Shown: in pieces, positions 14,322 to 45,100 of the stretch
How the letters are laid out: each line of letters begins with the position of its first letter
Numbering within the stretch: the first letter of the stretch is position 1
Virus record (IMG/VR): IMGVR_UViG_3300021079_000008
Span: 1 to 53,398 of that record
DNA from: a virus
Length of the DNA: 53,398 nucleotides
Strand: one strand, 5' to 3'
Notes under the pieces: generated by a model
The model's database searches: none
Told to the model about the DNA's origin: nothing
Seen by the model: only the letters and a program-made list of their open reading frames with translations
Program-made: the position numbers and the translations under genes

Positions 14322-15470
14322 ATGTCTGATTTTTCATTAACTACGCTCTTCGTAGTTCCAGTAGGACAAGTAGCATTTCCTAGCTCTGGCTCTACGCAGA
14401 ATTTAACCGCAGGTCAGGTTGGTATTTTCGGTAACGATTATACTGCAACCAATACCCCTGGTTCTTTCCCTTATTTTTACGTTGCTCAAGGTAGGGTAAA
14501 TACCTATCTTCAAGGTTCTAAACGTTCAGACAAAATTGCTGGATGTCAAGCTGGTGCAAATTGTAAATCAAATGTTACCGAATGGTATACAGTAAAAGGT
14601 TGCCCTACAGCAGCTACCCAAATCACTGATGTTAGTGGTTGGACAGCTAAATGTGGTGATGTTGTAACTCTTACTCTTCGTGCACATTCTAGCTACATTG
14701 ACACTTTGTACTTTAATGGTTTCACTCGTAGTGTAACTGTTCAAGCTCCTTGTTGTGATTGTGGTGCAGATCCTTGTGATACTGTTGATGTAAATGCTTT
14801 GATCAATCAGTTTATTGTAAAACTGAGTGCCCATGCTCCAGGTAACAACCCTGACAACATCAGTTTTAGCACATTCTACACATTCACAAATGTAGGTGGT
14901 ACAACTTTACGTATCTCTGCAAAACCTTTGACTAAGTACGGTCAGCCTTGTGATGTTGCTGCATTTCCTTTTGAATATGACAGGATGTACTTCCGTACAT
15001 TTGTTTATTCTGGTCCTGCAACCACTGCTGATTTTATTGTAGCTGACAATTGTAATATTGTTGCTACTCCAGTAATTGTGCAAAGGGCTTCTTATCCTTT
15101 AGGAACTTCAGATGAGATTAAGCAATTAGAAAAGAATTTCTATAGCTATCAAGCTGGATACCTGAAACATCTGTATAGGATGGTTGGTTATAACGAAAAC
15201 TTTGAAAGTTGGGTAACAGATGGTACTACCTACAATACCTTCTACATCAAGTTTAACGAGTATGACAAATCTGCCTACCAGTGGGGTGATTATATCATGG
15301 AAGATAGTACAGTGATCATTGCTGTTCCACAAGCAGTTTCCGCAACTTTGAAAGCAATTTTGGAAAATGCTTTGGGTTCTGTGGCTAGTGATAATAGTTG
15401 TGTTACAACTACATCAACTACCACTACTTCTAGTACAACCACTACTACCACTACAACCCTTATACCATAA
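14322..15470 (+). CDS. Abundant virion protein with poly-threonine tail
   Basis: 382 residues. N-terminal beta-rich domain (FSLTTLFVVPVGQVAFPSSG), a CCDCGADPCD cluster around residue 150, then helical and beta segments with SYQAGYLKHLYRMVGY. It ends in a Thr/Ser tract (from residue 362) and LIP. The codon use is like that of the capsid gene, with many GGT, CGT and GCT codons, suggesting heavy expression. It is followed by a strong terminator, which also makes it the end of a high-level transcript. A head fibre, decoration or tail-surface protein is likely. A tail-tube or sheath function is less likely in a short-tailed phage. Family not certain. Confidence 0.65.
   Translation: MSDFSLTTLFVVPVGQVAFPSSGSTQNLTAGQVGIFGNDYTATNTPGSFPYFYVAQGRVNTYLQGSKRSDKIAGCQAGANCKSNVTEWYTVKGCPTAATQITDVSGWTAKCGDVVTLTLRAHSSYIDTLYFNGFTRSVTVQAPCCDCGADPCDTVDVNALINQFIVKLSAHAPGNNPDNISFSTFYTFTNVGGTTLRISAKPLTKYGQPCDVAAFPFEYDRMYFRTFVYSGPATTADFIVADNCNIVATPVIVQRASYPLGTSDEIKQLEKNFYSYQAGYLKHLYRMVGYNENFESWVTDGTTYNTFYIKFNEYDKSAYQWGDYIMEDSTVIIAVPQAVSATLKAILENALGSVASDNSCVTTTSTTTTSSTTTTTTTTLIP
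15405..15458 (+). repeat. Poly-threonine tract at the C-terminus
   Basis: Eighteen codons of Thr with a few Ser, built of ACA, ACC and ACT, ending the 382-aa protein. One of several such tracts between 15405 and 27459. The codons vary, so it is the amino acid run and not one DNA unit that is kept. Confidence 0.85.
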
Positions 15471-17590: not shown

Positions 17591-18322
17591 ATGTCTTGCT
17601 ACCCAGGAACACCTTGTTATAATAGTAATAATACAATATTTCCAAGAGGATGTGGAATTGATCCTTGTCATGCTCATAAGACAAATACAGATCTGACATT
17701 CTATTCAGGACCCAATCTACCATGTACAGGTATAAATACTTGCGATGATGTAACCTTATCTCTTGAAAAGATTGATTCTGTAATTTGTGATTTGATCCAT
17801 GCTGGAATAACCACCACAACCACAACAACCACTACTATAGCTCCTAATTGTGGAACATATACTGTATTTAATCCAAATCCTATAAATGCAGCTCATTTAC
17901 CATATAGTTATACTAATTGTGATTTAGTTGTCATCACTGGATACATTCTTCCTCAGGAGATACTTCCTTTCTGTGTACACAATGGATTGATTACAGCTAT
18001 TGGTTGTGTTATTACTCATGTGAGTGATGCTTGTTTTACTCCAGCCACCACTACAACAACTACCACCACCTTTTTTTGTAATCCTTGTGTAACGTATCTA
18101 TTGATTAACTTAACTGCTCAGTCACAACTTTATACATATGGAGATTGTACTGGCACTACTCATAATGATATTGTTTTGTATGGAAATGATTTAGTACAGA
18201 TATGTGTATGTATGGGAAGTATTCTATATGATCCTATTAAAATACAAGCTACCGTAATAGCTCCAGGATGTCATCCTTTAGGAAATACCACAACAACCAC
18301 CACAACAATTCCAATTCTTTAA
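17591..18322 (+). CDS. Modular tail protein with two Cys-bounded cassettes and poly-Thr linkers
   Basis: 243 residues. An N-terminal attachment segment (MSCYPGTPCYNSNN, then SGPNLPCTGINTCDDVTLSL) is followed by three Thr tracts that separate two copies of one domain. Copy A spans residues 87-148 and begins CGTYTVFNPN. Copy B spans about 166-227 and begins CVTYLLINL. Both have Y-x-Y-x-(N/D)C-like strands, an FCVHNG or ICVCMG strand and a closing Cys before the next Thr run. These look like small beta-sandwich surface domains tied together by flexible linkers. The protein is probably displayed on the tail or head and contacts the host. The same cassette appears within the muzzle protein. Confidence 0.75.
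   Translation: MSCYPGTPCYNSNNTIFPRGCGIDPCHAHKTNTDLTFYSGPNLPCTGINTCDDVTLSLEKIDSVICDLIHAGITTTTTTTTTIAPNCGTYTVFNPNPINAAHLPYSYTNCDLVVITGYILPQEILPFCVHNGLITAIGCVITHVSDACFTPATTTTTTTTFFCNPCVTYLLINLTAQSQLYTYGDCTGTTHNDIVLYGNDLVQICVCMGSILYDPIKIQATVIAPGCHPLGNTTTTTTTIPIL
17810..17836 (+). repeat. Poly-threonine linker
   Basis: Nine Thr codons (ACC, ACA, ACT mixed) between the N-terminal attachment segment and cassette A of the 243-aa tail protein. Confidence 0.85.
17849..18034 (+). repeat. Cys-bounded cassette, copy A
   Basis: Encodes about 62 residues from CGTYTVFNPN to the Cys of DACF. It shares with copies B and C the order: C-x-x-Y, strand, Y-x-C or NC, a strand with ICV/FCV, V-rich strand, terminal Cys, then a poly-Thr run. 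Sequence identity is low at the DNA level, so the copies are old or diversified. Confidence 0.6.
18047..18070 (+). repeat. Poly-threonine linker
   Basis: Eight Thr codons joining cassette A to cassette B in the 243-aa tail protein. Confidence 0.85.
18086..18271 (+). repeat. Cys-bounded cassette, copy B
   Basis: Encodes about 62 residues from CVTYLLINL to the Cys of APGCHP, with YTYGDCTG and ICVCMGS at the positions where copy A has YSYTNCD and FCVHNG. It has the same length as copy A and is followed by another Thr run (18287-18307). Confidence 0.6.
18287..18307 (+). repeat. Poly-threonine tail
   Basis: Seven Thr codons after cassette B, four codons before the stop of the 243-aa protein. The reading frame ends just after the linker, with no domain attached. 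Confidence 0.8.
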
Positions 18323-18335
18323 TAATCAATAAGTT

Positions 18336-18590
18336 ATGACAGTATTAATAACCCTAACTACAGCAGGAGCTGATACAGGACCTTTCAATTTATATTCAGA
18401 TTTAGATGGATATATATCAGCTTTTGAAACAGGAGTAGCTAAAATAGACTTAGTGGCAGGATATACATCTTATGCAGTTCCTAATGGAACCATAATTGTA
18501 AGAGTTAGTTCAGATGGTACTTGTCTAAATTATGTAGATATATCAGTAAATACTACAACCACTACCACTACCACTACGCTTCTTCCATGA
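18336..18590 (+). CDS. Single-domain protein with poly-Thr tail, paralogous to the start of the 27473 gene
   Basis: 84 residues: one beta domain followed by nine Thr and LLP. The domain (MTVLITLTTAGADTGPFNLY onward to YVDISV) aligns along its length with residues 1-70 of the 27473-28342 protein. Both share the pattern I-x-LT-x(n)-TGPFN-(x2)-S/DLDG/NLGE, a hydrophobic strand before VVA/VPN, and SxxG-(D/T)C. It is therefore a duplicated module. It lies 13 bases after the modular tail gene and is followed by a terminator. A small surface-exposed or tail-bound protein is likely; no enzymatic motif is present. Confidence 0.65.
   Translation: MTVLITLTTAGADTGPFNLYSDLDGYISAFETGVAKIDLVAGYTSYAVPNGTIIVRVSSDGTCLNYVDISVNTTTTTTTTTLLP
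18552..18578 (+). repeat. Poly-threonine tail
   Basis: Nine Thr codons (ACT, ACA, ACC, ACG) at the C-terminus of the 84-aa protein, followed by LLP and a stop. Confidence 0.85.
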
Positions 18591-18625
18591 TATTAAAAAT
18601 CCTGTTTTGTTGGTTTACAGGATAT

Positions 18626-18660
18626 CTCCCTAGAGTTTCTACTCTGGGGAGTTTTAGTTT
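18626..18660 (+). terminator. Intrinsic terminator
   Basis: 11-bp stem CTCCCTAGAGT/ACTCTGGGGAG (one T-G pair) with a TTCT loop, followed by TTTTAGTTT. An upstream second hairpin ATCCTGT/ACAGGAT (18599-18605 with 18617-18623) precedes it. It ends the fibre-gene transcript before the promoter at 18710. Confidence 0.88.
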
Positions 18661-18709
18661 ACTCTCTAATCAAGTTAGTTAAACTATATAATTAAATTAG
18701 TTAAAATAA

Positions 18710-18742
18710 TTTGGTTAATACCAAAATAATTCCCTATCTTTA
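18710..18742 (+). promoter_or_regulatory. Bacteroidota-type promoter for the metallophosphoesterase
   Basis: TTTG at 18710-18713, a 21-bp spacer, TATCTTTA at 18735-18742 (one mismatch). The start site would lie near 18750, at a TTAACCAAAT leader 20 bases before the ATG at 18770. Confidence 0.7.
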
Positions 18743-18769
18743 CAGTAATTTTAACCAAATTATACTATT

Positions 18770-20020
18770 ATGCAAAGTAATCAACACTTGTTGGAACAAC
18801 TTCAGAAGTTATTAAATTGGAAGAAGAGTAAGAAATTTATGGCTGACAAACTTGGAATTTCAGAAAATGAAATTGAAGGGTTGTTAAATGAACTAAGAAA
18901 CAAAGAACAAGTGGAAAATGATGCAGAATGTGGAAATTACATTGGTGAACTTGAAGATCAGATTTTAAGGTATGAAGAAGATATTGCAAAGGGTGTAGCA
19001 GAACTAGTGTTCAATTGTCAAGAGGAAATTAAGACTCTAGATGAATTGATAATTAAGTGTAAAATTGATACAGAGAAATGGGAAATAACTAAATATGTTC
19101 AGAACTATTGGGGAAATAAACAAAATCCTCATTGGCAAGTTAAAGCTTGGTTGGGAAAGAAGACAGCAGAACAAGTGTTCCAGGATTCATTTACCACCTT
19201 CTTAGAAGAATATGTTCCAATTGCACAAAAGGTTATTTCTCCTAAAGTTAGTTTTGATAAAGAGTTTGCTTCTCTTATAATTAATAAGCAAGATTCTCAT
19301 CTGAATAAGTTTGATATTGATGGAAATAATAACATTCCTGAAAGACTTTCCCAGATAATGTATAAAATGGAAATAATTCTAGAACAAGCTTCCCTTTCAA
19401 ATAATCTAGATAACATCACTTACATAATTGGTTCAGACGAATTTAATAGTGAGTTCACTGGAGCAACTACAAAAGGTACTCCTCAGACCAATACTCATAC
19501 CTATCATACATCTTTTGAATACATATGCAATCATGAGATATTGATGATTACATTATTGTTACAATACTCAAATAACTTAAATGTTGTTTACGTATCAGGT
19601 AATCATGATGAATATGCAGGATGGCATTTGGTAACTTGGTTACAAGCATATTTCAAGAATGAATCTAAAGTGACATTTGATGTTTCTCCTAAATATAGAA
19701 AATACATAAGCTATGGCAATTCTGCAATGATGTTCAATCATGGGGATGCTATTAAACCTGCAAAACTTGCAGCAATGTTTCCAATAGAATATAGAGAGAA
19801 TTGGTCAGCACATGAGAACTTTTACATCTTTACAGGAGATAAGCATCATGAGGTGAGTCAAGACTTTAATGGTATTAAGTTCTATCAACTTCCAGCAATA
19901 TCTAATGCTAAAGGATTATGGGAAGATAAACATGGACATGTTGGAGCAAGAGCAGAAATAACAGGATTTTTGATAGAGAAGGAAGAGGGACTAACAAATA
20001 TATTTAAACAGAGTTTATAA
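18770..20020 (+). CDS. HTH-containing calcineurin-like metallophosphoesterase
   Basis: 416 residues. Residues about 1-50 look like a helix-turn-helix (KFMADKLGISENEIEGLLNE). A helical linker is followed by a metallophosphoesterase domain with all five motif regions: KQDSHLNK (D175, H177), GSDEFNSE (D223), GNHDE (N278-E281), MFNHGD (H324, D326) and GDKHHE (D357, H359, H360). Two metal ions would be bound. The substrate could be nucleic acid (SbcD or lambda phosphatase type) or a phosphoprotein; the N-terminal DNA-binding look favours DNA. It has its own terminator upstream and promoter, inside the virion gene block, and its stop overlaps the next ATG by one base. That suggests independent timing from the fibre genes. 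Confidence 0.85.
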   Translation: MQSNQHLLEQLQKLLNWKKSKKFMADKLGISENEIEGLLNELRNKEQVENDAECGNYIGELEDQILRYEEDIAKGVAELVFNCQEEIKTLDELIIKCKIDTEKWEITKYVQNYWGNKQNPHWQVKAWLGKKTAEQVFQDSFTTFLEEYVPIAQKVISPKVSFDKEFASLIINKQDSHLNKFDIDGNNNIPERLSQIMYKMEIILEQASLSNNLDNITYIIGSDEFNSEFTGATTKGTPQTNTHTYHTSFEYICNHEILMITLLLQYSNNLNVVYVSGNHDEYAGWHLVTWLQAYFKNESKVTFDVSPKYRKYISYGNSAMMFNHGDAIKPAKLAAMFPIEYRENWSAHENFYIFTGDKHHEVSQDFNGIKFYQLPAISNAKGLWEDKHGHVGARAEITGFLIEKEEGLTNIFKQSL

Positions 20021-20748
20021 TGTCAACTTTAAGAAAATTAGTTTCAGATATACGATCAATGCATAAATTGTTATCAACAGATAATTTGATAACAGATAGA
20101 GTAATTGCATCTGAAATTAGAAATGATACACTCTTACTAGTTAAGAGAGAAACAAATCTTAGAAAGCTTTGGGCTACTAGTACTTTGTTCACTTCAATTC
20201 CTTGTTTGGAAATGGAGGAAGTTTCTATTTCTGAATGTTGTGATTATGTAGATCCTTGTACAATCGCAAGAAGTAAATATAAGATTCCTCGTATAGCTGA
20301 AGGCAATTATCAATATATTATTCAGGGTGTTTATTCAATAAACGCAATGAGTGGAACTGGTAAGAAATTAAAAGAAATAACAGTAAATAGATACATAAAT
20401 CTTCTAAAACTTCCTATTGTTAAGAAGGAAGAATATTATTGGATAATGAATGATTATCTCTATGTAACCAATCCCTTATTACAAGCTATTAGGATTTCTG
20501 CGTTTTTTGAAACAGAAATTCCTAATGATGTTATGTATCCTGAATGTGGATGTGGTGGACATGAGCCTACTCTAGAAGAGTATTGTATAAATCCTTTAGA
20601 TAAAACTTTTGCTCTTCCAGGTTATCTAGAAAAACAAGTTCTTGAACTAACATCTAAAAAACTATTAGAAACTTATTTCAGAATTAAAACTGACATGGGT
20701 GAAGATGGTGTAGATGGTCAAGCACCTAATACAAAACCAACAAATTAA
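20020..20748 (+). CDS. Tail-ring/connector structural protein
   Basis: 242 residues. A long N-terminal helix (MSTLRKLVSDIRSMHKLLST) leads into a beta domain with a CCDYVDPCTIARSKYKIPRI segment and YYWIMNDYLYVTNP. A Cys cluster (PECGCG, around residue 187) and helical C-terminus follow. I recall a conserved virion protein of this appearance and position immediately before the IHF-like and tubular genes in crAss-like phages. The final 20 residues (GEDGVDGQAPNTKP) are Gly/Asp-rich and probably disordered. It is translated with its neighbours (overlapping starts and stops). Which ring it forms is unknown. Confidence 0.7.
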   Translation: MSTLRKLVSDIRSMHKLLSTDNLITDRVIASEIRNDTLLLVKRETNLRKLWATSTLFTSIPCLEMEEVSISECCDYVDPCTIARSKYKIPRIAEGNYQYIIQGVYSINAMSGTGKKLKEITVNRYINLLKLPIVKKEEYYWIMNDYLYVTNPLLQAIRISAFFETEIPNDVMYPECGCGGHEPTLEEYCINPLDKTFALPGYLEKQVLELTSKKLLETYFRIKTDMGEDGVDGQAPNTKPTN

Positions 20749-21224
20749 TGCGTGTAAAGGTTGATTGGAGATCTTCAAGTAAAGAAAACTATATACAGTT
20801 CTGTAAGAAACATCCCTCAATAAAATTAACCTTTGATGAGTGGAGAAATATTATATATTCCTATATTGAGTCTTACAAACAATATATTCTTGAAACAGGA
20901 GAGAAGGCAAAACTTCCTTATGGATTTGGTCAGTTCTCAATTAATAAGAAAAAGAGAAGAAAGGTAAAGACAAAGGATGGTAGAGACTTTATCAATCTTC
21001 CTGTAGATTGGAAGAGAACGAAAGAAAAGGGTAAAATCATCTACAATTTTAACTACCATACAGAAGGATATTTCTTCGGATGGATGTGGTTCAAAGATAC
21101 AGCTAGGCTTAAGAACACTGATCTTTGGTATTTCAAGCCCTCACGCACCACATCTAGACTATTATCCCACTATCTAAATACCAATGAAACATACCAACAT
21201 TTGTACAACGAATGGAAAAAATAA
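20748..21224 (+). CDS. HU/IHF-like DNA-binding protein
   Basis: 158 residues. The central part fits HU/IHF: a helix ending in YKQYILETGEKAKLPYGFGQ, then the basic arm FSINKKKRRKVKTKDGRDF, which reads like the GxGxF-beta-arm of HU. The C-terminal 60 residues are aromatic-rich with GYFFGWMWFKDTARLKNTDL and are not part of canonical HU. IHF-like genes located next to tail genes are a recognised crAss-like feature. Whether it is a virion protein that compacts DNA or a replication/transcription factor cannot be read here. It lies between ring genes with overlapping boundaries. Confidence 0.7.
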   Translation: MRVKVDWRSSSKENYIQFCKKHPSIKLTFDEWRNIIYSYIESYKQYILETGEKAKLPYGFGQFSINKKKRRKVKTKDGRDFINLPVDWKRTKEKGKIIYNFNYHTEGYFFGWMWFKDTARLKNTDLWYFKPSRTTSRLLSHYLNTNETYQHLYNEWKK

Positions 21225-21229
21225 CTTAA

Positions 21230-22198
21230 ATGTCATACTATTATCAATACAATTTTACAACACCAGAGATAGTTTATTCTACTATAAAGGAAGAATTTAA
21301 AAGCTATTTTGATACTGGTGCTATTGATGACCTTATGTTTCCCACTTATGTAGATAAGTGTTTAAGGAAATTAGGAAGGTCATCTTATGTCATTTCTGAG
21401 GAACCTCTGTATATAGAAGACTTTCAAGCAAGACTTCCAGATAACTTCTTTGCTGTAAGAGAAGCTTGGATGTGTACAGAAATCCCTCAATATCCCTATC
21501 AAACTGCTAATTCATTTTATTCACAAGCTGATTCTCAAACCACTATTCAGGTTAGTCCTATGACAGTGGGTGGAGAAGTATGTTCTGTATGTAATCAATC
21601 AGGTTGTGAATGTGATTGTCTTCCTGAAATAATCCCTGCTGTGTATAAGACCAATCAACAAGCAGGAAGATCTTATAAGCAGGAATACCTACTCAAACCA
21701 GGAAACATCTCTGCAAGAAGTAATTGTGATGTTGAATATAATAATGCTTGGAGATTCCAAAATATTCCTCCTGCAATTCATGAATTTACACCAGGGGCTG
21801 CAAGCTATGACTCATTTGACATAAGAGATAATAAATTTGTTACAAATTTTAGATGTGGTATAGTTCATTTAGTTTTCTATGCTACAGAATATGATAATAG
21901 TGGAAATCAGATGATTCCTGACAATTATCGTATTAGAGAGTTTATTGAAGCATTCATTAAATATAAGATGTTTGAAACTCTGTCTAATCAAATAAACGAT
22001 GAAACATTCCAACAGATACAACAGAAGCTTGTTTATTATAAACAATTAGCAGATGAGGCATTTATTATGGCAGATATCGAAATAAAAAAACAAGACGTTC
22101 ATACTAAACAAAGAAGAATAAAGAATGACTTGAATAGAAATAATATGTATGAACTTCCAAATCGTACAAATAGGTATGGCTGGAGACGTAATAATTAA
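21230..22198 (+). CDS. Tail tubular/adaptor protein (P22 gp4-like position)
   Basis: 322 residues. It starts with a helical domain (TIKEEFKSYFDTGAIDDLMF, YVDKCLRKLG) typical of head-tail adaptors that bind under the portal. This is followed by a beta-rich middle with a Cys-rich insertion CSVCNQSGCECDC, and a C-terminal helix with repeated FETLSNQINDETFQQIQQK. The gene precedes the muzzle gene by 8 bases, which is the order of tubular (gp4-like) and stabilisation (gp10-like) proteins in crAss-like phages. The Cys-rich insertion could bind zinc. Confidence 0.7.
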   Translation: MSYYYQYNFTTPEIVYSTIKEEFKSYFDTGAIDDLMFPTYVDKCLRKLGRSSYVISEEPLYIEDFQARLPDNFFAVREAWMCTEIPQYPYQTANSFYSQADSQTTIQVSPMTVGGEVCSVCNQSGCECDCLPEIIPAVYKTNQQAGRSYKQEYLLKPGNISARSNCDVEYNNAWRFQNIPPAIHEFTPGAASYDSFDIRDNKFVTNFRCGIVHLVFYATEYDNSGNQMIPDNYRIREFIEAFIKYKMFETLSNQINDETFQQIQQKLVYYKQLADEAFIMADIEIKKQDVHTKQRRIKNDLNRNNMYELPNRTNRYGWRRNN

Positions 22199-22206
22199 TA
22201 TAGACA

Positions 22207-25200
22207 ATGGCTGATAATACACAAGCACCTCAAAGTAATGTAAAACCAGAATATAACACTGCAACAACAGGGTTAAATTTAGATCAATCTGTATCTCAGA
22301 TTCCTAAAGGTAAACTGTCGTATGCATTAAATGCTGCTGTAGAGAACTTTGATGCTAATTCTGTTAACTATCAGAATGAGTCAGGTAATGAATTGTGTTT
22401 ACAGTTTCCTACAGATTATCAACTAATTGGTAAACACCTTATTGCTGAGAAAAACAAACACATATTCTTTTTGGCTAATCCTATAACAGGGAATTCCCAA
22501 ATAGGATATATGGACAATAATGATTGTATATATAGGATTTATATTGAGGCTCCTTGTTTAAACTTCAACATTCATTATCCTATCCCAAAGATAGTACATA
22601 AAATTACAAACTGCACTACAGAAATTTATTGGACAGATGGTATTAATCCTAGACGTTATCTTGATTTAGATAATATTCCTAGAATTCTCAAACCAGGAAG
22701 CACATTGTGTGATCCAATATATTCAGATGAAGTTGATTGTAATCAATTAAAATTACAACCTAATTTTGAAATTCCTCTATTGGAGGTGACAGACATAACT
22801 AATGGTGGTGCACTATTAGCTGGTACATATCAGTTCACTATTCAATATTCTGATGCTATAGGCAATCCTTATACATCATATTATTCTGTAACAAATCCCA
22901 CTCCTATTGCTAATACACATATAATTACAACAAGTTTTAATTATGAGGTGGGTAAGTCAATAGTTTTAAACATCACCAATCTTGATATCACAGGACAGTT
23001 TCAGTATTTCAATCTAGCTGTAATTAAGACAATAAATGATATTGCCTCTGTAGAACTTATTGGTACATATTTTATAGATAGGTCTAATAGACAAATTACC
23101 TATACAGGACAAAATCAAACTCAAATCAACCTCACAATCAATGATGTATTTGAGAAATATCCTTTTTATGAAATAGCTCAAGATATCACCACTGTACAAG
23201 ACATCCTTGTGTGGGATAATCTTACATCTATAGATAGAATTAACTATCAACAGATTGCAAATGAGATATCTTTTAATTGGCAAACACATAGGATTCCTTC
23301 AACAGAAACCTATGCAGATGAATTAAATGCTACAAACCTACGTGGATATCTACGTGATGAGGTATATGCATTTGAGATAGTGTTTATGCTAAAGAATGGT
23401 AAACAGACAGATGGTTTTCATATTCCTGGTAGGGCTATTGGATATAATGAAATCTCTCAGCTTGATGTTCCTGTAACTAATCCTGATTTTATTGGAGAAC
23501 CTGATCCCATCACTAATTCAAGTCCTTATTGGAAAATATATAATACAGGCTCTGTAACAGGTTATTCTCCTGAATATATTCCAGGAGATGCTTCTTATAA
23601 AGGACCTTATCAATATGGACAGTTTGCATATTGGGAATCTATAGAAACCTATCCTTGTAATGTAGAGATATGGGGAGAACTTGCAGACCAACCTATTCGT
23701 CATCATAAGTTTCCAGATGTAAGGGTTAGTCCTATATTTGAAACACCTCTTATTACAAAGAATTCTGATGGAACCTATCGTCCTGTTATGATAGATGATG
23801 CTATTTTTCCAATGGGAGTTATGATAAATATTCAACAGATTGGTCAATTAATTGCTCAATCTAACTTAACAAACGAACAAAAGGCTAACATATCTGCATT
23901 TAAGATTGTAAGAGGAGATAGAGCTACAAATAAGTCAATTGTAGCTAAAGGTATTTTAAGAAATGTAGGTAAATACACAAGAGATAAGATAAATGATCCA
24001 GATAGTACTTATTACTATTATCCCAATTATCCCTACAATGACTTAAAAGAAGATGTATTTCTTCTTGAACAAAACAATGCATATAACTCACAATGTAATA
24101 CTTATACAGTTACAGCAACAGCAACTGGCTTTATTGAGTATACAGATTGTAATACAAACATTTTAGTTAGAAAGAATGTAGTATCGGGAGATGTATTCTC
24201 ACAATGTTCAATTACTGTTCCTGTATCAAGTGTTGCTACATCTGTATTACTATCTAGTCCTACTAATTATACTCTAACAGTAGAGGGAGTTGGTGGATGG
24301 ATTAGTTTTCAATATGCAGATTGTATAACAGGAAGTAATGTAGGTGTTATAGTTTATACAGGAGCTCCTCGAAATATTTGTGCTGCGTCTACTTATAGCA
24401 CTCCTCTTCCTAAAGTATTGTTTCAGAATCCAAATGTTACTTCCTACTCTATTGTAAATAACAGTCCTTCTATAAATATAACTTGCTATCCTGCTCCTCT
24501 TAATGGATTTGTAATAGATAATGATCCTCTTAAAGATATACGATATAGACAAATATTCAACTCTCCCGAAACATCATTTGGTAATCCTGTTTTAGGAAAT
24601 GTTCTTAAATTAGAAAGTGCTATATTTGGTGCTGGTAAGGCTCATTTTGTAGAGGTGAGAAAGAATGCTTTATATAAGCTGTTAAGTCTTGATGCTCAAC
24701 AAGATGCGATGAATTCTAGTTTTGATATAGCTAACATTACAGCTCCTTATGATGTAAATGTTCTATTTACAGCATATCAAACCTATTTACAAATATATCT
24801 TACTGGTATTCCAAGAAGGAATTATGCCTACTCATTTAACTCTATAGCCAATTATTCATATAATGCTGATATAGATAATAATCTAGGAATCAAACAAAGA
24901 GAACTAGACTACTGTCAATATCTTATACCAGGATTTCAATCTGTAGGAGAATCAATTAGTATCAATAACTATCAGAGAGAATCTTCTGTATATCTTAAAA
25001 CCATGTCTTCAAGATTTGGAAATCCTTATACAGCACTACCTTTCCCAAGTCAAACTCCTAGTTTAATCTCTTCAGGAACAAATAGTTACATCACTGACAA
25101 TTCACGATTTACTATTTCTCAAAAGAACGATTGTGCATTTCCTACTAAACAGGAAGATATAACAGTAGTTTCCTATTATGCCTCTTTGAAGAACGATTTT

Positions 25201-27471
25201 GTGAATCAGTGGGGACAGATATACTCTTATCCCACAATTGATACAGGATTTCAAAGAAATATTGAAACTAATAATATATTAATGGGACAACCTTCAATTG
25301 CTACAATCTTTGGAGGAGACACCTTTATTAATAGATTTGCTTTTAAAACTAAGATTCCTTTCTTTATTGATAATAGAGTGGGAGCTCCTGATGATAGTGA
25401 TATATTCTATGATGAGATTGGTAATGTTGGATTTCCAAAATACTGGTTCTCTTCAAGGTCTGTATTAACTAATTATAAAAATCTTGCAGCATCTCCTCAT
25501 ATCAATCTACAGAACTTCTTTTCTACAAAAGCTCATAATTTTGACTGTCCTAATAGTCAACTTCCTAAACCAAGTCCTACATCAGTTCCTCCAATAGTAA
25601 ATTCTAATAGAACCTATTATGATGGAAAGATGTATATGTTTGCCTATGGTATTCCTAATTTCTATTGTGAGTCTAGTATAAATGTTGATTTACGTCAGGC
25701 GTTTAATAATAAGGATGGTGACTTTTTCCCTAGAGTTTCCACCACTATTCCTGATGATTGGGTACAAGAAAGTTATGTATCAATAGCATTTGATAATACC
25801 TATACATATAATATTACATATAGTAAGCAGAATAAAGAGAACTTCTTTAGTCATCTTCCTACAGATTGGAAAGCTCAATTGTGTTTTACAAACTTCCCTT
25901 TCAAAGCAATCTATTCTGATGAACAGAGTAGTGATCCTAGTAACAAGGTGAATAATTGGTTGAGTTATGGTGCACTATCATATTTTGATTTTCCTCAAAA
26001 CTTTGGTAAACTTACAAGTTTAGACGGTATTCAGAACAAAGCTGTATTAGCTAGGTTTGAGAATAAATCTCTCCTATATAATACAATGCTCACTATCCAA
26101 ACTAGCAATCCACAAGCAGCCTATCTTGGCAATAGTACATTATTCAAAGCTGCCCCTCCCATTGATTTTGCTGAAACAGATTTAGGATATGTAGGAAGCC
26201 AGAATAAATTCCTTTTGAAGATTCCTCAGGGACAGATTACAATTGATGCTAAAAGAGGACAGGTATTTCTTATTGCTGGTAATCAGGCTACAGACCTATC
26301 AGGGTTTGGTTCAGGACTTAATAGATTCTTCACTGACCATTTAGCATTTGAAATTCTTAGATATTTTCCAGATGTAGATGCTGATAATAACTTTACTGGT
26401 ATAGGATTACATGGTGTATATGATTCTAAATATGATAGGGTGATTATATCTAAATTAGACTATATTCCTTTAGATAAAGATATTAAATATGATTCCCTCA
26501 CTAGAGAGTTTTATATTAACAGAACCTATCATCAAAATTCAACAATTTCTATTCCTTGTATAGAATATACAGTACGTGGTCCAGATGATCTTGGAGATTT
26601 TTCTTGTACATATTTAAACTGTGATGCAAATCCTATAACTATTCCTATTGCACCAGATGAATGTATTGTTATTTTTGCATTAGAGAATTCAATAATTACC
26701 ACTCCATTTGTAACCGTTGAATTAGGAAATACATGTGGGGGTACAACAACCACCACTACATCCACTACTTCTACACCACGTGATCCTTTAGTTGTTCGTG
26801 AAATAGTATATTTAACAGATGAGAAATATTTCTGTAATAAGTCATGGACTCTATCTTATAATGTAAACACTCAGAGTTGGATAAGTTTTCATAGCTATAT
26901 TCCTAATTTCTATATAGGTGAAAACAATTTCTTCTATTCAGGACTTAATGGTGGATGTGATTTAGAATTAATCGCTGCTACAGAGATTCCTTCTACCACC
27001 ACCACCACTACAACATTTTGTTTAGGATGTCGTCCTCCTGAACCAACAACCACCACTACCACCACCACTATTGATTGTGGGTTAGTGGGAACAGCTCTTG
27101 AAGAATTTTGTACAATAGAGGGAACAGCATTTGATATCACTCCCACTACAACAACTACAACAACAACAAGTGGACCTACAGGAACTCTTGAATTACATAT
27201 TGTTCCTGGTGGTGGAGGTACTGCTACATTCACAAATACAGATACAGCCACTCCATATTCATTATTAGCAATAGATACTTTTGCAAGTATAACTGTTCCT
27301 TTAGGAAACTATACATATGATGGATTTACAATGTTACTAACTTGTGACGATGGATATGGACAAACTTCTACCCCATCTGTTCCACAAACATTTCTATTAA
27401 CTACAACATATTCAGTATCAATAGATTGTGCTTTAACAACTACCACCACAACAACAACAGCAGCACCTTAA
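22207..27471 (+). CDS. Tail muzzle/stabilisation protein (P22 gp10-like) with inserted Cys cassettes and poly-Thr linkers
   Basis: 1754 residues. The N-terminus (TGLNLDQSVSQIPKGKLSYA and NESGNELCLQFPTDY) is the recognisable start of the crAss-like tail muzzle, which forms the distal tube that opens at infection. Conserved blocks continue, such as SPETSFGNPVLGNVLKLESA and FCNKSWTLSYNVNTQSWISF. Between them are foreign-looking segments: a Cys-bounded double domain around residues 630-760, another cassette around 1451-1510 starting CIEYTVRGPD, and five Thr tracts from residue 1513 to 1751. It ends in poly-Thr plus AAP. In relatives as I remember them, the chain continues with the segment now encoded by the next gene, so this gene may have been split. 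Confidence 0.85.
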   Translation: MADNTQAPQSNVKPEYNTATTGLNLDQSVSQIPKGKLSYALNAAVENFDANSVNYQNESGNELCLQFPTDYQLIGKHLIAEKNKHIFFLANPITGNSQIGYMDNNDCIYRIYIEAPCLNFNIHYPIPKIVHKITNCTTEIYWTDGINPRRYLDLDNIPRILKPGSTLCDPIYSDEVDCNQLKLQPNFEIPLLEVTDITNGGALLAGTYQFTIQYSDAIGNPYTSYYSVTNPTPIANTHIITTSFNYEVGKSIVLNITNLDITGQFQYFNLAVIKTINDIASVELIGTYFIDRSNRQITYTGQNQTQINLTINDVFEKYPFYEIAQDITTVQDILVWDNLTSIDRINYQQIANEISFNWQTHRIPSTETYADELNATNLRGYLRDEVYAFEIVFMLKNGKQTDGFHIPGRAIGYNEISQLDVPVTNPDFIGEPDPITNSSPYWKIYNTGSVTGYSPEYIPGDASYKGPYQYGQFAYWESIETYPCNVEIWGELADQPIRHHKFPDVRVSPIFETPLITKNSDGTYRPVMIDDAIFPMGVMINIQQIGQLIAQSNLTNEQKANISAFKIVRGDRATNKSIVAKGILRNVGKYTRDKINDPDSTYYYYPNYPYNDLKEDVFLLEQNNAYNSQCNTYTVTATATGFIEYTDCNTNILVRKNVVSGDVFSQCSITVPVSSVATSVLLSSPTNYTLTVEGVGGWISFQYADCITGSNVGVIVYTGAPRNICAASTYSTPLPKVLFQNPNVTSYSIVNNSPSINITCYPAPLNGFVIDNDPLKDIRYRQIFNSPETSFGNPVLGNVLKLESAIFGAGKAHFVEVRKNALYKLLSLDAQQDAMNSSFDIANITAPYDVNVLFTAYQTYLQIYLTGIPRRNYAYSFNSIANYSYNADIDNNLGIKQRELDYCQYLIPGFQSVGESISINNYQRESSVYLKTMSSRFGNPYTALPFPSQTPSLISSGTNSYITDNSRFTISQKNDCAFPTKQEDITVVSYYASLKNDFVNQWGQIYSYPTIDTGFQRNIETNNILMGQPSIATIFGGDTFINRFAFKTKIPFFIDNRVGAPDDSDIFYDEIGNVGFPKYWFSSRSVLTNYKNLAASPHINLQNFFSTKAHNFDCPNSQLPKPSPTSVPPIVNSNRTYYDGKMYMFAYGIPNFYCESSINVDLRQAFNNKDGDFFPRVSTTIPDDWVQESYVSIAFDNTYTYNITYSKQNKENFFSHLPTDWKAQLCFTNFPFKAIYSDEQSSDPSNKVNNWLSYGALSYFDFPQNFGKLTSLDGIQNKAVLARFENKSLLYNTMLTIQTSNPQAAYLGNSTLFKAAPPIDFAETDLGYVGSQNKFLLKIPQGQITIDAKRGQVFLIAGNQATDLSGFGSGLNRFFTDHLAFEILRYFPDVDADNNFTGIGLHGVYDSKYDRVIISKLDYIPLDKDIKYDSLTREFYINRTYHQNSTISIPCIEYTVRGPDDLGDFSCTYLNCDANPITIPIAPDECIVIFALENSIITTPFVTVELGNTCGGTTTTTTSTTSTPRDPLVVREIVYLTDEKYFCNKSWTLSYNVNTQSWISFHSYIPNFYIGENNFFYSGLNGGCDLELIAATEIPSTTTTTTTFCLGCRPPEPTTTTTTTTIDCGLVGTALEEFCTIEGTAFDITPTTTTTTTTSGPTGTLELHIVPGGGGTATFTNTDTATPYSLLAIDTFASITVPLGNYTYDGFTMLLTCDDGYGQTSTPSVPQTFLLTTTYSVSIDCALTTTTTTTTAAP
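24094..24486 (+). repeat. Cys-bounded cassette, probable double copy in the muzzle
   Basis: Residues about 630-760 of the muzzle begin CNTYTVTATATGFIEYTDCN and later repeat the theme with YTLTVEGVGGWISFQYADC and GAPRNICAAS. This matches the C-TY-(x)-Y-x-DC-(x)-IC pattern of cassettes A-C, but without a Thr linker. It interrupts what looks like conserved muzzle sequence (YPYNDLKEDVFLLEQ before, IRYRQIFNSPETSFG after). Confidence 0.5.
26557..26736 (+). repeat. Cys-bounded cassette, copy C in the muzzle
   Basis: Sixty residues from CIEYTVRGPDDLG through TYLNCDAN and ECIVIFALENSI to the Cys of GNTCGG, then a Thr/Ser tract. It is inserted just before the conserved VVREIVYLTDEKYFC block of the muzzle. 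Confidence 0.6.
26743..27459 (+). repeat. Series of five poly-threonine tracts in the muzzle C-terminal region
   Basis: Thr runs at 26743-26775 (with Ser), 26995-27015, 27046-27069, 27145-27168 and 27436-27459. They are separated by conserved muzzle sequence, short Cys-containing pieces (FCLGCRPPEP; IDCG to FCTIEG) and a beta domain beginning GPTGTLELHIVPGGG. Codons vary among ACA, ACC and ACT. Confidence 0.8.
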
Positions 27472-27472
27472 T

Positions 27473-28342
27473 ATGTCAAAAATAGTAATCATACGACTAA
27501 CAATGTCTGGTAATAGAGTTACTGGTCCATTTAATATTTCTGATAATCTAGGAGAAATTCTTGGAACAGATGTTCCTAAATCATCTCTTATATCGGGAAT
27601 AAGTTATGTTGTTGCTGATACTGCCTCTGTAATCATTGTCACATCTACAGGAGACTGTAATCTAACTAAATATATATCAATCTCTACAATAACAAAAGAA
27701 GAATTAGCAGCAATAAGATATAGACCACTCAATACTCCTTCATTATGGAGACATTTAACCAATCCTGAGATATATAATTACTTCTATGGAAACATAGAAC
27801 CTTACATAATTGAGTATCCTTTCTCATATCAATATCAGGATGAAATCCTTCAGAATGTAAAAGACTACACTAAGGCTTATAGATATTGGCAAAATGGAGA
27901 GGGTGTATTTAATTATAATGATAGAGTAGAAACAGATGATAGATGGTTTAACAAAGCTATTTTATATAATGGTCAACAGTCTACAGGTGTGTTAGAGTTA
28001 GTTCCAAAACCTCTTCATAATCTAAAGGAATACTTGAAGTATCCTTTATATAACGTTGATAGTAAGACAATTACATTTACAAAAGCTGATAACTTCTATC
28101 AATATAACACCTTCTGGAGTTTAATTAAAAGTAAGTCTCTACCTCTATTTTTAACAAGTTGTAAGAGTCTTTCTATAGATAAGCTTGTAAATCAGGCTAA
28201 TATGGATTATGGTAAGCGATCTTTTAAGAAAGATACACTGAGGGCTAAAGATTTGAAAATACGTCATATTTTAGACAATCGTTCTGATGCTCATCTTGTG
28301 AGTCAATTTACTATTGCATCATCTCAAATCTCTTATATATAA
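27473..28342 (+). CDS. Fusion-like protein: duplicated beta module plus probable muzzle C-terminal domain
   Basis: 289 residues, starting one base after the muzzle stop (TAATATG). Residues 1-70 are the beta module also found in the 84-aa protein at 18336-18590 (TGPFNISDNLGE). Residues about 85-289 contain EPYIIEYPFSYQYQDEILQN, YNGQQSTGVLELV, and KRSFKKDTLRAKDLKIRHIL, which I associate with the C-terminal part of the crAss-like muzzle. The simplest reading is that a poly-Thr/beta-module insertion split the muzzle into two genes that are translated one after the other. The stop of this gene overlaps the next start (TAATGG). Confidence 0.7.
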   Translation: MSKIVIIRLTMSGNRVTGPFNISDNLGEILGTDVPKSSLISGISYVVADTASVIIVTSTGDCNLTKYISISTITKEELAAIRYRPLNTPSLWRHLTNPEIYNYFYGNIEPYIIEYPFSYQYQDEILQNVKDYTKAYRYWQNGEGVFNYNDRVETDDRWFNKAILYNGQQSTGVLELVPKPLHNLKEYLKYPLYNVDSKTITFTKADNFYQYNTFWSLIKSKSLPLFLTSCKSLSIDKLVNQANMDYGKRSFKKDTLRAKDLKIRHILDNRSDAHLVSQFTIASSQISYI

Positions 28343-39164: not shown

Positions 39165-42100
39165 ATGCCTTTACCAGATGTAAATATATTAAAGAGTGCA
39201 AATGATGATTTTTTACAATCTAATCCTGCTCGCTTTTTCCCAGAAAATCTAGTAAGCACTTCTTCTTCAGGATTAGATGGAGGAGAACCTACTCCAAAAA
39301 GTTCTTTTCTTTCATTAACTCCTAATGAAGGAGATGGTAAAATCTATGCCAATACCCCAAACTATTATCAACCTAAGGATGTTCCTAATAGATATAAAAG
39401 ATTTGTTTTTGGAATAGATAATGAATCTGTTCAAGCAGATATTCAGTCTGGATGGGATAGAGTAGGAAATGCTGCAGCAAACTTTGGTGAGAAGATAGGA
39501 GCATATTTGGTACAAACTGCTGGATTTATTGGTGGAGCAATTCCTGCTGCAATAGGTGGAATTGTTAACTATAGTGATAAAGCTCTTGGTGGAAAAGGAG
39601 AAGTGGTTAATAAAGGAAATGCTGTTTCTCTTATGACAGATAATCTTCTTACTAATCTGGGAGAATCTATAAAAGAAAATGTACAAGAAACTAATCCTAT
39701 ATATAAAAGTGCAAAATATACACAAGGTAGTATTTGGCAAAAATTAGGAACTACATCGTGGTGGTTAGATGATGCTGTTGATAGAGCTGCTCTTACAGTA
39801 TCTATGATTATTCCAGGAATAGCTGAAGCTAGGGGAGTGGGACTATTTGGTTCTATAGCAGAAGAAGCAGGAACTATAAGAGCAACAGGATTGCTTTCTA
39901 AAGGAATACAAGAACTGGCAGATAATCCAGAACTCTATGGAAAAATAGGAAAAGCTTTAGGTAATCAAATTTATAAAACTGCTGTAGATGGTACAGTGGA
40001 TATTGGTTCTAATAGTGCTCTAGCTAATAGAGCTTTAGCATTTAAAAATACTATTCAAAAAGCACAGGCTATTGAGTTATATTCTTGGAATGTAATTGGT
40101 CAGTCTGCATTAAATGGAAAAGAAGCTCAAACCTCAATTAGGAGAGCTCTATATGATCAAAGGGAACAAGGACTTATTTCTATGTCAGATGATGAAATAG
40201 AAAAGAAGGCAGCAGAAGGTGCTGCTAAAGGTTTTTGGTATACTGCTCCTTTAGCTCTTGTGGGTTCTTTGATTGAACTTCCTCAGATATTTTCTACAGC
40301 AAAAATGGGACAGAGTGCTTTAAAAAAGTTCTTTAATCCTAATACATTAGAAGTATTGGAAAATGCAGCAAAAACTGTAAAACCTAGTTTTTATAAAATT
40401 GTACGTAATACATTATTTACAGGTCTTGAGCATGGACAGAATGAAAGTGCACAGGTAGCTATTGGTAGATATCTTGAAGAATCTATTGCTGGTACAGTTA
40501 AAGGTGGAAGAATTATTAAAGACGAACAAAATCCTTTTATAGCTATTACTAAAAACTGGGTAGATAATGTTAATGATCCTAATGGTCAGAATAACATTGC
40601 CCTTGGTACTATTCAGGGTATGTTAATGACATTACTTGGACATGGTGGAAGGGTATTAAAAGGAACATACGCTAAAGAAGATGCTCAGAATAAACGATAT
40701 ATAGAAACTATAAATAATGCATTAACAGAACGTAGATATTGGTCTACTCCTGATAACTTCATGGAAAAGGATGATAGTGGTAAAATAAAACTACATCCAA
40801 ATGGTTCTCCTGTATTTAATGAGAACAAACTTGTAAGTATGGGTATGTCATTAGTAGGTATGACTAATGCTTGGAATAAAAGAACTGAAGCTGTAAAAAA
40901 TAATGATCAGAAAGCAATTGAAGAATTGCAATATTCTTCTTTAGCAGCATTGTCTAAAAACTTTTTCGATGATCCTAATGGAATGGAATATTTAACTAAC
41001 CTGTTAAGATTTGAAACAAAGAATCAAAAATCAAATATTAATAGAGTTAATGATGTTGTTAATGGTATAGAATATACTCCTGATAGACAACTAGAAGAAA
41101 ACTTACAAAGTATTGAAAAATTAAAAAAAGCTCATGATGCTATTGAAAATAGACATGCTGGCTTTACTTCTATAGAAATAGATAATGCTGATAAGAATGA
41201 GGTAAATTTAAAAGCAGGATTTATAGAAAATCATAAACAGGCTCAATACTCTATCGCTGCAAAACAATTATTTTTAAATAATAGAATAGAGAAAAATAAT
41301 ATAGAACTTGGTTCTTTAGGAATATCTGAATTTACAGAAAATCCAACTACTCCTCAAGAAGAGAGAGCTAATGATATTATTAAAGAAAATGAAGATAATG
41401 TTAAGGAGTTAGATGAAGCAAAAGATACATATAAGTTTCTTACAGATAAGACTCAATTCAAATCTAGATTCAATACATTAAGAGATGAATATAGAAAAAC
41501 AAAACAGAGAATAGAAACTGCAAAAGATAGTGCTGCTCAGAAAGCAGTAATGACTCCTGAAGAACTTCAAGATGCAAATACAATTAAAGTAACTACTAAA
41601 AAAGGTGAGCAAAATGTTGTAATAGGAGAAGAGTACTATTTAGGAAAAGTTATTGAACATGATGTACATGGAAACGAAGTATATCGTTTTCCCAAACTTA
41701 CTATATTAGGAGAAAATCCAGATGGTACTATTCAGATTAAAGGATCTGATGGTATAGAAAGAGCTATAACCAAAGATGTTCTTCTTGACTATAAGCTTGG
41801 TAAGGTGGCAGATGTTGCAAAGAATGAGAATGCTAGTTTCTATATGAGGAACATGAATAATATTGTATGGTGGAATACAGGTAAGTCAAAACTTGGTAAG
41901 GTTCCTGGAAGACTTGTATATGATAGTGTTAAAGATAAACTCTCCTTTGTATATGTACAAAAGGGAAAGGTGAGAGAGGTTGAGATTGGTCTTGATTCAT
42001 TTGAACCTAAACAAGGATATGACGAAGGTGTATTTACATTAGGTGGGACTCTCACTAAAGAAGACAAGATTGATATTGAAAAAAGGAAATCTTCTGGTAA

Positions 42101-45100
42101 AACTATACAGGATCAATCTAATAGAAGAACTACCAGGCTTAAAATGCTTAATGATTTATTTAATGAAACAAGTGATAGATTAACCACTACAAAAACTCTA
42201 TTACAACAAAAGTATAGTGAATTTGAGAAGGTGGTAAACGATCTATTAACTCTTGAGACTAAAATTAAGAAAGGAGAACTTAGTGGTAGAAATAATTTTA
42301 AAAGTACAACTAATAAAGCAATAAAGGCTGCCAATAGACTTTCAAGAATGCAAGAACAATTACGTCTTGAAATTCAGGAATTAGAAGCAGAACAAGATAC
42401 TCTTGATAATGCTCAAGCCTATATTGCTGATATGGCTCAAAATATTGATGAACTTCCTACAGATAGTAGAGAGTTCTTGAATGAACTTAAAGATCAACAA
42501 AATCTTCTTGAAAGTTTACATTTAGAAACTGGTATTCAAATCAACTCTCTATCTAAGATTATTGATAGCACAGATGCTGCATTAGATAGTGCTATTAATA
42601 TGGTGAGAGAACTTATTAGTAAGTTTGAAAAAGCCTACCCTAAATCTCCTACAGCTATTATTGGACAAACATGGGTAGACTTTTTACAAGCTAATCCTAA
42701 TTTCTTAAAACTTAAACCTAACTTTAAAGCAGATCTTGCTATAGTTGAGGATATACTTGCACAAATAGAAGACTTAGATATTATTCCTGGAGAACGTACA
42801 GTTAAAGAACTTCGTGAACAACTTGAAGGTCTTCAAAATCAACTTAAAGATATTGAAGAAGAACTTGCTGCCAAACAATTAATTCTTGATAAGTTTGAAG
42901 GAATAGTTAAGCTTTGGGAGAAATCAAAAGAGGAAGAAACTAAAATATCTAAGAATGAAGAATTGATTAAAGCTGTATTAGGTACACTTAATCAAACAGT
43001 ACAGAATAAAGTATTTGAAAAACCTTTTCAAGCTGATTCTAAAAAAAGCAATGAGGTTGTTACTAAAGCTACCATCTTCCCAACAGAAAGATCTGAGAAT
43101 GGTGAAACTCCTGCAGAACATCATTTACGTGCAAATAGATTTGGTGCAAGATTTCCAAAACTTAAGAATAGGAGTAGTATACGTGGTGTGATTGTAACAT
43201 CCACTAATGAAGCTAAACTTATTCCTGGATTAACAGAATTCTTGAAGCAAGGTAAAACTGGTGTAGATGTTGCTACAACTATTACTTTAGTTATGGTTGA
43301 AAAGGATACAGAGGGTAATATTCATTTAGTAGATGAAAATGGTGAAAGAATCACTGATGTTAAAGATGCCTTAAATAAAGGAATCTTCCAAGTATTTCCT
43401 TTAGATATAAAGGATATGTTTAGAGAGGGTACTGAAAAATATGTAGTTGATGGATTAAGTAAACAATATGAAGATTGGAGAAAAGAACAATTAGCAGAAC
43501 CTGAAGCAATTGATTATAATATTGCTGCATCTTTTGGTATTCCTGAAACTGTTAAAAAACTTGATGAACAAGGTAATCCTTTAAAAGAAGAAGATTATAC
43601 TGCTCAAACTCCTATAACAGAAACTGGTCTTATATCTGAATCAGATCTTAAAACTGATACAAGAGTATATATTCCAACTCTAGAAGGTACTACTACTCAG
43701 GGCACAACTAGTTTTAAAAATTCTTTAGGTGCTGTATTCTTAAGAACTGCTAATGGAGATGTTCCTTTAAATAATAGAAAGCATACATCAAAAGAAGCTA
43801 GTGCTATCTATGATGCTATTTATCGTCTTTCTACAAATATTATAGCAGATGGTAATATTAAATCTGAAGAATCTCAACGTTTATTACAATTCTTAAGAAG
43901 TGTTGTATTTTGGGGATCTCCAAAAGATGGTAAGAATTCTGGATATAACTCTGTATGGTTTGATAAAATTGCAGAAGATGGTAAGTTTAAACTGTTCATG
44001 TCTGGAAAGAATACAATTGTTTCTGAATTTACTCCTACAGAATTAGAGAATAATAAGGGAAATATCCTTGCTCTTTTACAGGAAATGTATAGCAACACTA
44101 ACTCAAAACTTACAGAGTCTGATTGGAAAAAACTATATGAACAAATCATTTCTATATCTAAGGATGGTAAGATAGAAAAGAAAACATGGGAAAATTATCA
44201 AACCTATCTTCTATCTAATAAGGATGCTAATGGTAAAACTGCTAGAAAAGCTTCAGACATTCCTCTCACTACAAGAATAAGACCTCTTAAGAATGCAGAA
44301 GATGTAAATAAAAAAGGTGTATATTTCATCATCAATGATGAGGCTAATGATTCTAAGTTTGTACATCCTGAAGTTCCTAAATCAATAGTAATTACACCAG
44401 GTGCTCCAAAGGCTAACACTACAGTGGAGAAAGAAGTAGCTAAACCCACTACCATCATGACTCCTACCCAAAACTTTGTTTTAGATGGAACTACTGAAAA
44501 TACAATTACTCTTGCTGATGGAAATACAATTAGTTTTAAATATGATGATAAGCAAGTAATTGAACCAGAAGGATTACCAACAGTATCATTAACAATAAGT
44601 CCTGGTGCAAATAAAGCTCTTGTTGATAAGAAAAAAGCACAAGGAATAGATATAACAGAAGATGATGTTAAGTCTGCTTATTATGCATATATTATTAGTA
44701 AAATTAATGCTTTCAAGGAATCTATAAAAACTCCTACTCCAGAAGTTATTATAGAAACTCCTATGGAAGACAAACCTGTAGAAGCTCCTAAAAGTGCAAA
44801 TGATGTGAGTGCTTCTATAAAAAGTAAGATTGAAGAAAGAAAAAAGAATGTAAAGAAAGATGTTGACTTACGTGAGTTTGTAGATAATTTAGTTGGTCAG
44901 TTTGAAAAAGAAAACTGGACTAAGGTAGAAGCATTTATTAAGGCAACTTTTCCTAATATTCCTATATATAGAGTGAAGAATATGCTTCAGGGTGTAAATG
45001 GTTTACAGGCTTGGGGTATGTTAAAAGATGGTGCTATTTATATATATGAAAATGCTGAAGTTGGTACTGCCTATCATGAAATATTTGAAGCAGTTTGGAA

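Follow-up and report, generated by a model that had tools for sequence, protein, structure and literature searches.

Small beta domains, among them the Ig-like and BACON accessory domains, are repeated on the surfaces of virions, where they are presumed to bind carbohydrate. Elsewhere, Thr/Pro-rich spacers that are often glycosylated lie between binding modules, as in the Pro/Thr linkers of cellulases and scaffoldins and the PTS repeats of mucins. Domain shuffling is established for the receptor-binding and tail proteins of phages, where it is recent and ongoing and affects host-contact proteins foremost (Smug et al., 2023; PMC10684548). In crAss001, the muzzle is situated at the tail tip, with an outer domain expected to contact the cell, and the length of this protein varies through insertions (PMC10172136).

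The window analyzed here is the whole 53,398-base viral record IMGVR_UViG_3300021079_000008, which sequence comparison identifies as part of a crAss-like phage genome (a fragment). In a profile search, gene 22207 (22207–27471) matched the crAss_MUZ family PF25731 with an E value of 5.7e-38 and a score of 131 bits, the family cut-off being 27. The closest relatives with names, at 28–34% identity, include crAss-like phages of Leptolyngbya, Cellulophaga, and the human gut. Scanning with a conserved muzzle block gathered 58 IMG/VR loci that are 48–74% identical over the block, and the non-redundant set comprised 47 loci, the window counted in. The same block recovered no relative in a scan of a genome collection, which thus gave no hint of a host, and a tblastn search of gene 17591 against named phages returned no match. 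The right quarter of the window is occupied by an open frame of 4,630 residues (39165–53057) that, judged by position and size, may encode a virion RNA polymerase or another crAss-like cargo protein.

In the outgroups L059, Lbo-JY46, csAssE-Sib, and phi17:2, the muzzle is one open frame that includes the C-terminal domain, and the block equivalent to residues ~1531–1580 of the window protein ('YFCNKSW...SFHSYIPNFYI') reaches this domain within a few residues, without tracts or cassettes. In the window, and in every other relative in which the C-terminal domain was found, the frame instead stops after a tail of threonine tracts and cassettes, and the C-terminal domain (27728 onward in the window) is encoded, following a GPFN domain, by the adjacent gene or one close by. 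The single chain that defines a Crassvirales muzzle is therefore represented in the window by two. The muzzle core gene (22207–27471) encodes the N-terminal chain, from which the C-terminal domain of the outgroups is absent, and a separate gene (27473–28342) encodes the second chain, in which a GPFN domain (start to ~27690) is fused to the muzzle C-terminal domain (27728–28339; positions 1589–1781 of phrog_15100). The outgroup alignment indicates that the muzzle of this clade has been divided precisely at the start of its tail of tracts and cassettes, so that the place that accumulates cassettes is also the place where the chain opened to yield a new free end. Conservation of both chains suggests that they still assemble together. 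The window contains two paralogous GPFN domains of ~66 residues with the motif GPF[ND][LI]YS (18336–18590 and 27473–27690); in the relatives, this domain heads many tract genes both up- and downstream of the muzzle, often as tandem gene copies.

A scan of the whole window located 10 Thr/Ser tracts, all in frame on the plus strand, in four start-to-stop open reading frames, and none in any other gene. A virion protein gene (14322–15470; phrog_15060) carries a single C-terminal tract of 18 residues (15405–15458) followed by LIP and the stop codon, and its orthologues (in L003, L005, L012, and others) bear C-terminal tracts as well. The tail-fiber-like gene 17591–18322 begins with a putative anchor segment (17591–17809) whose motif, YSGPNLPCTGI.TCD, is common to the tract genes of the relatives; its three tracts are a Thr9 (17810–17836), a Thr8 (18047–18070), and a C-terminal Thr7 (18287–18307) that precedes IPIL and the stop. 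The small GPFN-domain protein encoded by 18336–18590 terminates in Thr9-LLP-stop (tract 18552–18578). The remaining five tracts are in the muzzle core gene: an 11-residue Thr/Ser tract that closes a cassette (26743–26775), tail tracts 1 and 2 (26992–27015 and 27046–27069), where the variable tail begins and the outgroup chain is uninterrupted, tail tract 3, which is Thr8-Ser (27145–27171), and a Thr8 tract at the C-terminus (27436–27459) followed by AAP-stop. An 88-residue module of another kind (27172–27435) is flanked by the last two of these. A module of ~25 amino acids with the motif DC.L.GTA, in one or two copies, recurs between the Thr tracts of muzzle tails in the window (27070–27144), L012, L014, L034, and L053, and has the appearance of a second, smaller mobile unit.

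The relatives carry 489 distinct tracts in the same class of genes. Across the 47 loci, the pure-Thr runs of tract proteins include 221 of exactly seven residues, 53 of eight, and 10 of nine, with none of 10–15; in long tracts, Ser interrupts Thr. Tract-free proteins of the same loci show a normal decay (10,820, 719, 61, 1, and 0 runs of one, two, three, four, and five or more Thr, respectively), Thr accounts for 325 of the 332 homopolymers of six or more residues, and (ACN)7AC was found in none of 29 random viral contigs of 42–193 kb. Given these three controls, the Thr tracts are not explained by chance. Leu, Ile, Ala, or Val usually occupies the position immediately after the tract (+1), and Pro is located at +3 in 248 of the 489. 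The resulting decad, T7-x-x-P, is found across the 47 loci, often in tandem (dozens in L034) or just 5′ of a stop codon. Two relatives (L032:1622–3775 and L033:1259–3724) contain Thr/Ser stretches that reach 110 residues and repeat every three residues (T-S-S or T-T-S), in mixed TCN/AGY codons, as if a second type of stalk were built on triplets.

The segments between tracts cluster at 62–75 residues, and one family unites 56 of them from 26 loci, in muzzle, tail-fiber-like, and GPFN genes. The domain is ~65 residues long and contains four conserved Cys residues. Within the window, a profile built from the relatives matches copy 2 of gene 17591 (18077–18274; E = 8e-13), a double copy within the muzzle (24085–24435; E = 1.4e-7 and 0.0038), a cassette late in the muzzle (26548–26739; E = 0.0012), and copy 1 of gene 17591 (17846–18046; E = 0.007). 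Using hhalign on copies left out of alignment A2, E values of 1.7e-4 for copy 1 of gene 17591, 2e-5 for the late-muzzle cassette, and 1.5e-7 for the double copy (A2 against A3) were obtained. The two weakest copies in the window are individually marginal, and their membership rests on the context of the family. No credible match was found in Pfam for 51 cassettes (Ig and BACON models included; best E = 0.037, and each family that was hit at all was hit by a single cassette) or in PHROGs for the domain. Sequence searches of the PDB with the cassette profile, the muzzle, and the C-terminal gene yielded no match, and the muzzle of the window has no detectable sequence match among solved structures. 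An AlphaFold2 model of copy 2 of gene 17591 comprises five beta strands with a pLDDT of 92.4; its best fold match in the PDB has an E value of 0.38, and the closest predicted viral structures are uncharacterized proteins of uncultured phages (best E = 9e-4).

An earlier, sequence-only reading of this DNA had pointed out the Thr tracts at the ends of genes 14322, 17591, 18336, and 22207 and the domain copies, all of which were recovered here. The profile search among crAss-like relatives that it suggested returned 104 copies at E < 1e-3, distributed over 43 loci and different genes. Structure prediction, its second suggestion, was confident for the copy from gene 17591 (pLDDT 92) but poor for the muzzle copy (pLDDT 64), and a fold search from the latter model was disregarded; a common fold is thus supported by the sequence profile and not by structure. 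Its proposal that cassettes are inserted between conserved muzzle blocks holds for the late-muzzle cassette, which is lineage-specific: among 43 loci checked, the cassette and its tract (26548–26775) occur in the window only, and the same site has no tract in 30 loci and tracts without a cassette in nine (three of the 43 were unreadable by script). The same reading had counted a degenerate double copy at 24094–24486 among the shuffled cassettes. We rejected this assignment, as the copy at 24085–24267 occupies the same muzzle slot, free of tracts, in ~36 of the 47 loci, being missing from L059, the most divergent relative. The domain must then have at least one role in which it is not swapped.

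Comparisons of close relatives reveal replacement of domains of the kind seen in receptor-binding proteins with exchangeable domains. L038 and L055 are 92% identical, and the muzzle of the former ends in T7-S4-T7-APL-stop and that of the latter in T8-VPP-T7-cassette-T7-APL-stop, after which the matching L038 DNA resumes; as judged from this alignment, the L055 muzzle gained a cassette between tracts relative to L038. A tail gene of L028 contains a cassette that is 72% identical to this one, a match which indicates that cassettes move between genes. A second pair, L025 and L044, is 97–99% identical over 12 kb save for one tail gene, in which the two sequences part shortly before the first tract and stay different as far as the stop codon (apart from similarity of the arrays); the gene ends in a ~240-residue domain in L025 and a 61-residue cassette in L044. 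Over ~190 nt, the cassettes of L044 and L035 differ at a single position (~99% identity), in genomes that are ~85% identical to each other; the switch from dissimilar to near-identical sequence is situated inside the Thr-decad array, and the right limit is in a conserved stretch after the stop. Unrelated domains are also found 3′ of the last muzzle tract in L013 and L018. For ungapped sliding identity, in which register is lost at indels, the first ~300 nt alone were used.

All of these loci are metagenomic, and the tracts are repeats able to mislead assemblers, which raises the concern that the differences between relatives are chimaeras created at repetitive tracts during assembly. Another assembly, L073, reproduces the L044 junction (4,023 nt, one mismatch), although possibly from a related sample; the L055 junction was seen on its own contig only. 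Tract layouts are unchanged across assemblies (L005–L008, L050–L052, and L040/L041/L054), reading frames are open through every junction, and the codon-mixed tracts differ in sequence from one another. Assembly error is thus unlikely, and the chance that it produced these differences as a whole is slight. Counts of breakpoints point to the tracts as well: of the 64 unique breakpoints in the muzzle, 19 are at tracts or the stop, compared with 3.6 expected, although related pairs are counted more than once and the figure is indicative only. For unique breakpoints elsewhere in tract genes, the count is 87 of 167 (about half), with related pairs again counted repeatedly. An enrichment of alignment ends over whole loci (2.5-fold) was judged weak since many ends have other causes, and the within-gene count was used in its place. 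Annealases of the RecT, ERF, and Rad52 families were found in none of 10 long relatives.

The sequence-only reading had also envisioned that recombination at Thr tracts swaps domains and that the tracts persist through selection on the protein. The first claim stands insofar as whole cassettes are gained, lost, or replaced at tract boundaries between close relatives, with a tract-flanked cassette gained at L038/L055 and a module replaced at L025/L044, but it does not extend to the copies at 24094–24486, which are not exchanged. The second was borne out by a codon comparison of 85 orthologous tracts from 18 close pairs (578 codons). Synonymous differences number 211 there and non-synonymous ones 17, whereas ACN codons altered at random would be expected to acquire about twice as many non-synonymous as synonymous changes. 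The tracts are under strong protein-level constraint. Their length is unchanged in 65 of the 85 orthologues and differs by one codon in 16.

These codon data contradict two further explanations. Repetitive coding DNA is prone to slippage, and the one-codon length differences could be taken as its trace, in which case the tracts would be low-complexity products of replication and the segments between them would have diverged fast in place. This scenario is extremely improbable given the sharp peak at seven residues with none of 10–15, the strong purifying selection on the tracts, and a frequency of identical neighboring codons slightly below that in shuffled tracts (0.334 vs 0.357), the opposite of what slippage would leave. 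Nor does a ~99% identical cassette in a ~85% identical background reflect divergence in place, and neither do the unrelated domains that near-identical genomes have at one and the same site. Alternatively, the tracts could be maintained as DNA sites for recombination with the Thr residues as a by-product, in keeping with the enrichment of breakpoints at tracts and with the ACN backbone that any two tracts have in common. However, synonymous sites are free to diverge (they differ in 211 of 578 codons) and the amino acids are not, tract length is set in amino acids, and C-terminal tracts are kept without a following domain, all of which render this alternative very doubtful.

The tract rule, the domain family, the gain, loss, and replacement of modules bounded by tracts, the protein-level constraint, and the split muzzle are each shown by the sequence comparisons, and they are probably best explained by modular display tails on the crAss-like virion, in which small, putatively ligand-binding domains on Thr stalks are exchanged at tracts by recombination. 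In such a layout, an anchor (a fiber N-terminus, a GPFN domain, or the muzzle) would lead into a stalk, composed of T7-x-x-P decads or longer Thr/Ser repeats, and then into one or more small domains, which would mostly be the unnamed ~65-residue four-Cys beta domain and also domains of other kinds. A muzzle loop would have opened into a gene boundary in this clade, and the resulting free C-terminus would be available for display. When diverged phages infect the same cell, recombination between them may replace the part beyond a tract (the C-terminal modules), aided by shared tract or array DNA and by conserved 3′ gene ends, and the tracts would be held at seven residues or slightly more since they serve as exposed stalks. 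The exchanged domains may bind ligands of the cell surface or matrix and thereby adjust adsorption, and a change in host or mucus binding, as the earlier reading proposed, would be one possible outcome. By analogy with the placement of the crAss001 muzzle (PMC10172136), a role of the muzzle tails in attachment is likely, and the domain swaps, as read from the sequences, probably change what the phage surface can bind.

A pure linker role is a poor fit to the C-terminal tracts of 14322 and 18336, which have no domain following them. These would be accounted for if, as an alternative or an addition to display, the tracts were platforms for phage-directed O-glycosylation, acting as mucin-like stalks for shielding or decorating the virion, with the cassettes as incidental passengers or sugar-recognizing partners; Thr/Ser stretches as long as 110 residues are also consistent with this possibility. 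Family-2 glycosyltransferases are encoded by all 10 long tract-bearing crAss-like relatives and by 13 of 14 other large tract-bearing contigs, and by none of eight named tract-free crAss-like or related phages. By record size, 24 of 26 tract records of at least ~83 kb carry them, whereas the figure for large contigs drawn at random is 7 of 15 (Fisher p = 0.002), although the records in these counts are not independent. Inspection by eye places the glycosyltransferase genes of L225 and L229 beside a dTDP-sugar reductase-like and a sugar methyltransferase-like gene, finds a fucosyltransferase-like gene in the set of L227 and glycosyltransferase genes in L228, and locates several such enzymes beside sugar-nucleotide-like genes in some relatives. 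A link that had been taken as decisive (23/24 vs 0/9) was lowered to suggestive by the control of random large contigs (7/15). For smaller contigs the association is weak (p = 0.45), with the enzymes in 7 of 30 that bear tracts and in 2 of 19 random ones; the sugars may instead modify DNA or the host envelope, and a sharp optimum at seven residues is unexpected for a plain carrier of glycans. We regard glycosylation of the tracts as possible, though rather unlikely.

At least 120 viral stretches contain the pattern T7-x-x-P-T7, with the cassette domain in 28 among the matches listed; these stretches include contigs of 235 and 343 kb and other kinds of proteins. Sequence matches thus place T7-x-x-P in many unrelated environmental phages as well. 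In one unrelated phage (L134:8483–10090), a Thr7 tract terminates a protein that resembles a major capsid protein, and tandem TTTTTTTVKP decads are present in a small protein next to it. It is a speculative and somewhat doubtful extension that Thr7-x-x-Pro is a general stalk code, fixed in length, glycosylated by the phage, and mucin-like, with which many unrelated phages, from crAss-like to jumbo, would build and exchange surface modules and which in one crAss-like clade would have led to the split of the muzzle and a new terminus for display. In practical terms, Thr7-x-x-Pro provides a sequence rule for spotting exchangeable surface modules and stalks in uncultured phages, whose tail proteins are mostly unannotated. 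A hallmark protein of the Crassvirales was here divided in two so as to bear such modules, and the tract rule and the split muzzle together point to candidates for the host-attachment parts of environmental crAss-like phages.

The literature searched, with most subscription journals outside its reach, contained no description of threonine-rich or poly-threonine phage proteins, the Thr7 rule, the domain family, or the split muzzle; this evidence is limited, and the punctuated form of domain shuffling appears undescribed. Diversity-generating retroelements pair a reverse transcriptase with a variable repeat that changes at adenines, and the differences seen here are replacements of whole domains in place of such point variation. 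Relative to the linkers of cellulases, scaffoldins, and mucins, the tracts consist of a near-fixed seven-Thr unit with Pro at +3, they are located in phage virion proteins, and their sugar is only putative. The Cys-bounded domain departs from Ig-like and BACON domains in its four conserved Cys residues, with no credible match in Pfam and no confident fold match in the PDB. As in the mosaicism described by Smug et al. (PMC10684548), domains are exchanged between otherwise unrelated virion proteins, but here the exchange has a fixed Thr7-x-x-Pro punctuation, involves a Cys-bounded family unknown to Pfam and PHROGs, and has reached the muzzle core. The closest counterpart of that core, crAss001 gp44 (PMC10172136), belongs to the same family by profile (PF25731) and likewise varies in length by insertions at its exposed end. 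Whereas gp44 and the other outgroups are single chains, the muzzle of this clade is made of two, and a tail of tracts and cassettes and a GPFN domain mark the break.
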